DNA of 64,000 nt, from contig NZ_JABXKQ010000076.1 in NCBI RefSeq assembly GCF_017114945.1, positions 1-64,000 of the forward strand. Direction: 5' to 3'. The notes below the pieces were generated by a model that did no database searches, had not been told where the DNA came from, and saw only the letters and a program-made list of their open reading frames with translations. Origin of the DNA: Nostoc sp. JL34 (lineage in GTDB: Bacteria > Cyanobacteriota > Cyanobacteriia > Cyanobacteriales > Nostocaceae). Positions 33,426 through 51,276 of the stretch are shown one piece after another; within the stretch, counting starts at the first letter, position 1; each line of letters starts with the position of its first letter. The position numbers and the translations under genes are program-made.

Positions 33426-34210
33426 AAGGCAGTGGGCATTGGGCATGGAGAAGAGACAAGGGACATAAGGAAGAGACTTGTTCAATAATTCCCCCTCGTC
33501 CTCCTCATCCCCCACTCCCTTTTCTTTAAGTAAAATTCATCTAAAAAGACCAAATGCAAAATTCTGCATCTGGCCTTGGGTGTAGAATAATTAAAATGAC
33601 TAAGATGATCTAGTAGATCCTTCTTAATATTTATTTCGTCGGGAGCCATCTGCGAGGAGAAGGAAGCAGGGTGCAAGAGTAGGTCAAGAATAGTAAGATT
33701 TGTTGCCAATTGCAATAAACCTGTACTACTTGTGAAAATCCATGCCCTAGATTCAGATTCAGATGAAACGAAAGAGATTTTATGCTTCAGCAAAGGACGT
33801 TAAACAGGCGTCGAAGCGAAGATAAATTACTGCTGATGTAGAAATCAGCTAGTCAATGTATGAGAAGAAAAACTATTGGGGAATAAAGTGAAGTTGCTTT
33901 AAGACTGTTTCCTCAATCAAGCAAAATATCTGAATTAGATGTGCTTTAGATTAACTGATAGCCTAAGTCACATTTATTTCTAGAACAGTTGAAGATTGAG
34001 ACGCAGAGCTTCTCAGGAATATGAACAACAGTTGTGTAGCTTTTGAGGAGTTGGTAATGCTGTTGATCAAGGCACTGAATTTGATTTGCGTTTTGATCGG
34101 CAGGATTGACACCAACTATATATACAAAGCTTGCAGTTGAAATACTAAGCGATCGCTGAAGATTTTCGTGTGTCAACTGTATATATCTCTGCCAGAAAAG
34201 CTGTGTAAAA
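33426..34210. other. Intergenic region, no confident gene
   Basis: This holds a tandem-repeat tract at 33430-33530 (GGGCATTGGGCATGG-like), an imperfect hairpin near 33546-33578 that could end the ferritin-like transcript, and two minus-strand frames, 33482-33793 (103 codons) and 33946-34221 (91 codons), without recognisable domains or good ribosome-binding sites. I do not call them as genes, though a small conserved protein cannot be excluded. Confidence 0.45.
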
Positions 34211-34227
34211 GATGTTAGCACAACATC
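34207..34227 (-). terminator. patX terminator
   Basis: On the minus strand GATGTT (34227-34222) pairs with AACATC (34216-34211) over a 5-nt loop and is followed by TTTT. It lies 54 bp after the patX stop. Confidence 0.6.
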
Positions 34228-34280
34228 CTGTTTTATGGTAATTCTGTTCCTTTAGGAAAAGAGGCATTACCTTACAGTAG

Positions 34281-34508
34281 TTAAACCACAGCATAGATAT
34301 TTCCGAATTTTTGTGTCACTTCTCTACGCCCACTACCGCGATGACGTGGCGCATCATCTGGATTTTGTTCAGATGCTGCCGAGAGCCACTGTTCCGAAGC
34401 AGGCGTGGAAAGCAGCCCATAGGATAAGTGATTGACCATTGCTTGGCAGTTAGAAGCTAAGGGGCCGAACACCAGACTCGATATTAAAAGTGAAATGGCA
34501 GCACGCAT
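34281..34508 (-). CDS. patX: PatX-type RGSGR peptide precursor, heterocyst pattern inhibitor
   Basis: The 75-aa product has a hydrophobic N-terminal secretion signal (AAISLLISSLVFGPLASNC, residues 3-21), a short spacer and a C-terminal block DDAPRHRGSGRREVTQ with the hexapeptide HRGSGR at residues 56-61. RGSGR is the morphogen pentapeptide that binds HetR in PatS and HetN; PatX proteins (signal peptide plus RG[ST]GR near the C terminus) are found across heterocystous cyanobacteria. Gene order near glnA-gifA agrees with the Nostoc patX locus as I recall. After export and trimming the peptide should suppress differentiation of neighbouring cells. A TCCGGA promoter element lies upstream, and hetR is 16 kb away in this window. 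The start has no strong ribosome-binding site. Confidence 0.87.
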   Translation of the reverse strand: MRAAISLLISSLVFGPLASNCQAMVNHLSYGLLSTPASEQWLSAASEQNPDDAPRHRGSGRREVTQKFGNIYAVV

Positions 34509-34539
34509 AGCAAATGTCTATTTTGGAACTCTCCACTTC

Positions 34540-34571
34540 ACTGATACTTAGCTTTTTGATTAATATCCGGA
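34540..34571 (-). promoter_or_regulatory. Candidate developmental (DIF1-type) promoter of patX
   Basis: TCCGGA at 34566-34571 is the -35 motif of promoters switched on in differentiating heterocysts in Nostoc 7120. On the minus strand TAAGTAT follows after 15 bp as a possible -10, predicting a start near 34535 and a leader of about 27 nt. TCCGGA is itself a palindrome and lies in the loop of the hairpin at 34553-34585. Confidence 0.55.
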
Positions 34572-34585
34572 TAATTAATCAAAAA
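34553..34585. terminator. Hairpin after the FAD oxidoreductase gene
   Basis: TTTTTGATTAAT (34553-34564) pairs with ATTAATCAAAAA (34574-34585), with a 9-nt loop. It lies 30 bp beyond the stop of the minus-strand oxidoreductase gene. The loop contains the TCCGGA element of patX, so one sequence may serve both as terminator and promoter. Confidence 0.6.
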
Positions 34586-34615
34586 GTATTCTGTTTTACT
34601 GAAAATAAACTCTTC

Positions 34616-50352: not shown

Positions 50353-51276
<924 letters not shown>

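Follow-up and report, generated by a model that had tools for sequence, protein, structure and literature searches.

The window, by which we mean the whole stretch of 64,000 nucleotides of Nostoc sp. JL34 that was analysed (contig NZ_JABXKQ010000076.1), carries on its minus strand a 75-codon open reading frame whose translation, read from 34508 down to 34281, starts with MRAAISLLISSLVFG. The 75-residue protein matches NF047413, the curated PatX equivalog model of NCBIfam, at 88.4 bits (cut-off 30), and a Pfam search with it gave no match. An earlier note on this DNA had described such a gene, with a secretion signal and HRGSGR near the C-terminus, and the frame bears this out: HRGSGR occupies residues 56–61, and inspection of the translation reveals a hydrophobic N-terminus that is a putative Sec signal sequence. 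A hetR gene lies in the same window. Judged from its sequence, the frame is the patX orthologue of this Nostoc, well preserved and typical of its clade. The PatX family, the RGSGR motif and this type of promoter are already published, so the locus is not novel and the finding is real but expected. Coordinates are collected in Table 1.

Table 1. Features of the patX locus and of the loci compared with it.
Feature	Position or locus	Strand	Evidence or remark
patX CDS, 75 aa (75 codons)	34281..34508	-	NCBIfam NF047413, PatX equivalog
Putative Sec signal sequence (hydrophobic N-terminus, residues 1-23)	34440..34508	-	Inspection of translation
HRGSGR hexapeptide (residues 56-61), predicted HetR ligand	34326..34343	-	RGSGR in 75/75 relatives
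Conserved leader, putative -10 to ATG	34509..34543	-	Column conservation
AAGTAT, putative -10 element	34544..34549	-	16 nt after TCCGGA
TCCGGA, DIF1 motif at -35 position	34566..34571	-	Starts 63 nt before ATG
GTA-N8-TAC, NtcA-type site	34586..34599	-	Starts 28 nt upstream of TCCGGA
Inverted repeat, perfect 13-nt arms around TCCGGA	34552..34586	.	11 or more of 17 pairs in 29/29 close relatives
Weak hairpin downstream of patX	34211..34227	-	2 G-C pairs, then 4 T; terminator unsupported
hetR, expected target, 299-aa ORF	50377..51276	+	HetR_C PF18460, 159.6 bits, cut-off 27
patS candidate, short frame MLVTDSGERGSGR then stop, ends in ERGSGR	G000:C123:67053-67070, locus L115	-	
Dyad loci	L128, L130, L133, L134, L200, L203, L205, L207, L208, L219, L221-L226		Several other families

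Relatives of the gene were gathered in two ways. One scan of genome contigs gave a first set of 75; since MRAAISLL was among its search peptides, a second set was taken by profile. From the profile matches, 20 stretches and then 80 loci chosen from the listing were fetched, the 80 comprising 40 loci of the window's family and 40 of other families. Ten of the 40 same-family loci are identical over positions -63 to +60 to one of the first 75, so the two sets overlap and are not independent. A profile search finds the PatX family in 42 of the 59 genomes near that of the window, its own included. Among 387 genomes sampled from the order, 192 have a match, of which 183 score above the cut-off. Within the window's genome the PatX model has a single match at E ≤ 0.001, and querying with the protein sequence brought just two further places, both weak (E 0.25 and 0.39). 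The hydrophobic N-terminus is conserved among the relatives, MRAAISLL being one of the peptides by which they were found. PatX of a Nostoc sub-group (L063, L064, L068, L069, L071-L073, L075) is lengthened to 104–128 residues by an insert that follows the signal sequence and precedes the motif.

Across all six frames of the window RG[ST]GR occurs once, inside the patX frame. Every one of the 75 relatives of the first set has RGSGR, and the preceding His is found in 66 of 76 loci (window included); one relative, L107, has RGSGR early in the protein and RGEGR at the near-C-terminal place. The RGSGR codons show synonymous changes among the 75. The profile-picked loci of the same family divide into 36 with RGSGR and four with RGTGR, and the 40 from other families into 33 with RGSGR, four with RGGGR, two with RGEGR and one in which the motif was not found. 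The PatX of Anabaena/Nostoc PCC 7120, which we take to be asl2332, is like that of the window in its signal-like N-terminus, RG[S/T]GR in the C-terminal part, DIF1 promoter and accompanying HetR; HetN is a much larger, dehydrogenase-like protein. The former has RGTGR where the window has RGSGR, the two being placed in one family by the curated model, and HetN shares the presence of RGSGR inside the protein (PMC7761841, cited, like the other papers here, from the accessible part of its text). The earlier note had treated Ser as a variant; it is instead the rule, with RGSGR in 75 of 75 relatives and Thr in four of the 40 profile-picked loci, and the accessible part of PMC7761841 has Thr in only a few alleles, which makes RGSGR the usual PatX motif. 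The curated family model and the conservation seen in all 75 relatives uphold the note's assignment to PatX, as do studies of PCC 7120 (accessible parts of PMC7377430, PMC7761841 and PMC12756182).

TCCGGA begins exactly at -63 from the ATG in all 75 relatives; among the 40 profile-picked loci of the family it begins at -63 in 29, at -62 in nine and at -66 in one, and the remaining locus lacks an exact TCCGGA. Between 50 and 75 nt upstream, the 40 other-family loci show TCCTGA (18), TCCGGA (7) or TCCCGA (1), with no TCC-N-GA in 14. The count of TCCGGA in the window is itself unremarkable (three, against 8.65 expected from shuffles), and the remaining two copies both lie inside large open reading frames; it is the conserved place at -63 that makes the patX copy more than a chance occurrence. 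Elhai and Khudyakov reportedly described PatX in 2018 with a DIF1 motif within about 69 nt upstream, and are said to have placed an NtcA-type site upstream of patX in heterocyst formers. Of 76 loci (window included), 61 have GTA-N8-TAC, which we take to be the NtcA consensus, no more than 40 nt upstream of TCCGGA, 60 of them at the window's distance; the other 15 lack an exact match. At the putative -10 place, AGTAT is found in 70 of 75 relatives, and the corresponding word in the 39 profile-picked loci with TCCGGA is AGTAT in 22, AGTAG in 11, AGTAC in four and another word in two. According to the accessible part of PMC7761841, patS and patX are induced early from promoters with DIF1, in dependence on NtcA and HetR, and expression from the patX DIF1 promoter depends on hetZ (PMC7377430, in part). 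The order of the elements, as read from the sequence of the window, agrees with this published work on patS and patX, and the promoter word TCCGGA named in the earlier note is thus supported both by its position in the relatives and by the accessible PCC 7120 literature. TCCGGA-N14..19-AGTAT occurs five times in the genome, patX included, against none for the reversed control; the flanks of the four further sites were printed, and we claim no regulon from them. A pattern with a fixed 17-N spacing missed the patX of the window because its spacer before AAGTAT is 16.

The TCCGGA of the window is also the centre of an inverted repeat. Pairing in all 29 close relatives reaches at least 11 of 17 pairs, 11 being the 99.9th percentile of chance, and 31 of 33 distant loci lie at or below the 95th percentile (9), so the palindrome, which had looked like a possible operator, does not belong to the widely conserved promoter. 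Loci L051 and L052 carry different arms that are likewise complementary around TCCGGA, and templated correction of a quasi-palindrome may account for such changed yet complementary arms.

The hetR gene of the window supplies the expected target. In none of 17 genomes of the genus, the window's own included (L122; L228-L239, L241-L244), do the 846 nt upstream of hetR contain TCCGGA, and the five readable loci from other families lack it too (one with 343 nt only; two further loci are unreadable). The patS candidate at L115 has no TCCGGA within 900 nt upstream. In PCC 7120, hetR is driven by DIF1 (accessible part of PMC7377430).

With the gene, its motif, its promoter words and hetR all observed, we are highly confident that the locus is a Nostoc patX orthologue acting by the published chain of HetR inhibition, in which expression, export, cutting and HetR binding would be as in PCC 7120. 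On nitrogen starvation, NtcA and the HetR/HetZ-dependent DIF1 (TCCGGA) promoter would turn patX on in differentiating cells; the 75-residue precursor would be exported via its N-terminal signal sequence, and a peptidase, PatP for instance, would cut it; and the RGSGR-containing peptide so released would reach neighbouring cells, bind HetR and block its DNA binding, keeping the neighbours undifferentiated. For PCC 7120, the accessible parts of the literature report that overexpression of patX blocks heterocyst formation (PMC7761841), that export of PatX is demonstrated, that HRGTGR binds HetR with a KD of 88 nM, and that PatX is cut by PatP, with the cutting site located only by means of an E. 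coli reporter (PMC12756182); in the accessible part of PMC7761841, loss of patX alone had no discernible phenotype in nitrogen-depleted medium. No sequence evidence against the patX explanation was found.

HetR might not be the main target of PatX in this strain. Transcript changes caused by PatX in Leptolyngbya BL0902 do not seem to require HetR (PMC11298460, in part), and the role of PatX as a HetR inhibitor may therefore not hold in every lineage; however, direct HetR binding and genetic interaction are reported for PCC 7120 (accessible parts of PMC12756182 and PMC7761841) and RGSGR is kept in 75 of 75 relatives, so that we consider such an alternative target very improbable here. That the locus is instead a patS gene, encoding a very short peptide that ends in RGSGR, is scarcely credible. 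PatS is a HetR-inhibiting RGSGR peptide with a DIF1 promoter in PCC 7120 (PMC7377430, in part), and the locus shares RGSGR and a TCCGGA promoter with it, but PatS has 17 residues in that strain (PMC12756182, in part), whereas the protein of the window has 75, its N-terminus is signal-like, and 14 residues follow the motif. Its length and its score as PatX by the family model refute the patS identity, and the patS candidate of Table 1 is a separate frame. A chance frame with a chance motif, which the shortness of the frame and the lack of a Pfam match might suggest, has a negligible probability and is refuted by the family model match and by the 75 relatives, which keep both the frame and the motif while their RGSGR codons vary synonymously.

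Having identified the gene as patX, we consider the region between its putative -10 and its ATG. A 22-mer at 34526-34547, which takes in the -10 and some of the leader, has a single occurrence, with at most two mismatches, in each of 34 of 59 genomes, always next to patX. These 34 account for all but one of the 35 genomes of the genus; that one, which is incomplete, and 24 genomes from other families make up the 25 that lack the 22-mer. In the first set, the synonymous sites of the initial codons had seemed conserved. In the profile-picked set the mean same-codon share, taken from printed per-codon values with codon bias uncontrolled, is about 0.78 for codons 2–8, 0.55 for codons 9–16, 0.75 for codons 17–23 and 0.51 for the RGSGR codons. 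A special start element was accordingly dropped, codons 17–23 being about as conserved, and this lowers the probability of patX-specific control in the leader. RNA structure was not found in the leaders of the window's family (mean z 0.06; 0 of 40 below -2).

Several other families have an imperfect dyad over the patX -10 and start region, CCGTATCAGG-N8..11-CCTGACACGG and variants. By GTDB practice, heterocyst formers are placed in the window's family. Compared with single-base shuffles of the sequence that follows the left arm, the dyad reaches p ≤ 0.05 in 16 of 46 anchored leaders from other families (Table 1), several of them near-identical pairs and hence not 16 independent cases, and falls short in 30; the window's family gives 0 of 38. 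Three of 49 and two of 40 leaders could not be anchored, and L204 and L210 had been excluded beforehand because the profile match missed the ATG. Folding gave z below -2 in 12 of 37 other-family leaders. In some loci the arms change together (TCAGG/CCTGA, TTAGA/TCTAA, CTGT/ACAG). As the left arm covers the putative -10, a full RNA hairpin is impossible if that promoter is used, in which case a DNA operator is the more likely role for the dyad. A literature search, whose reach did not extend to the founding PatX paper, found no description of the dyad. Conservation from the -10 to the ATG in the genus and its kin, with a dyad instead in several families, might reflect a patX-specific control element in the leader beyond the promoter words, which we regard as unlikely. 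If it were true, patX output would be tuned by a dedicated regulator or post-transcriptionally, and this control would have changed between families.

Downstream of patX, the hairpin that the earlier note had read as a terminator did not withstand scrutiny. A terminator scanner listed none at 34211-34227, folding of the stretch is no stronger than that of shuffled versions (z -0.36), and conservation is poor: a full stem followed by TTTT is found in three of 20 loci examined (drawn from the 76), and 17 of the same 20 have short weak hairpins with at least four T somewhere downstream.

Wider sampling of the family revealed PatX-like proteins, from other families, that have a signal-like N-terminus and carry RGSGR more than once. 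Six distinct genes encode them; of the 126 loci scanned, five are repeat fetches of a gene already sampled. L275 (G126:C95) has 17 copies, spaced mostly 15–16 residues apart, L251 (G042:C156) has 11, L252 (G181:C35) has four, L253 (G064:C58) and L254 (G054:C7) have three each, and L189 (G104:C35), which runs off, has at least two. Two of the six score below the PatX cut-off of 30 (L275, 26.1 bits; L254, 28.2 bits), and L275 has no DIF1-like word upstream. From their sequences, these proteins look like multi-copy peptide precursors; the literature search, which did not reach the founding PatX paper, found no description of RGSGR repeats. Some Nostoc genomes also hold a diverged paralogue with RGGGR for RGSGR and ACCGGA in place of TCCGGA. 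It accounts for all four second copies of the genus above the cut-off (L131, L132, L137 and L138, in G006, G029, G009 and G012), three weaker second matches lying outside this count.

The analysis confirms that this Nostoc genome has both hetR and patX, the latter with DIF1 and NtcA-type words in its promoter. Fresher than the patX locus itself are the poly-RGSGR proteins, the RGGGR paralogues, the hetR genes of the genus without TCCGGA and the dyad of the start region. The first three, the poly-RGSGR proteins as candidate precursors, bear on the evolution of the inhibitor and on the generality of the wiring described for PCC 7120.
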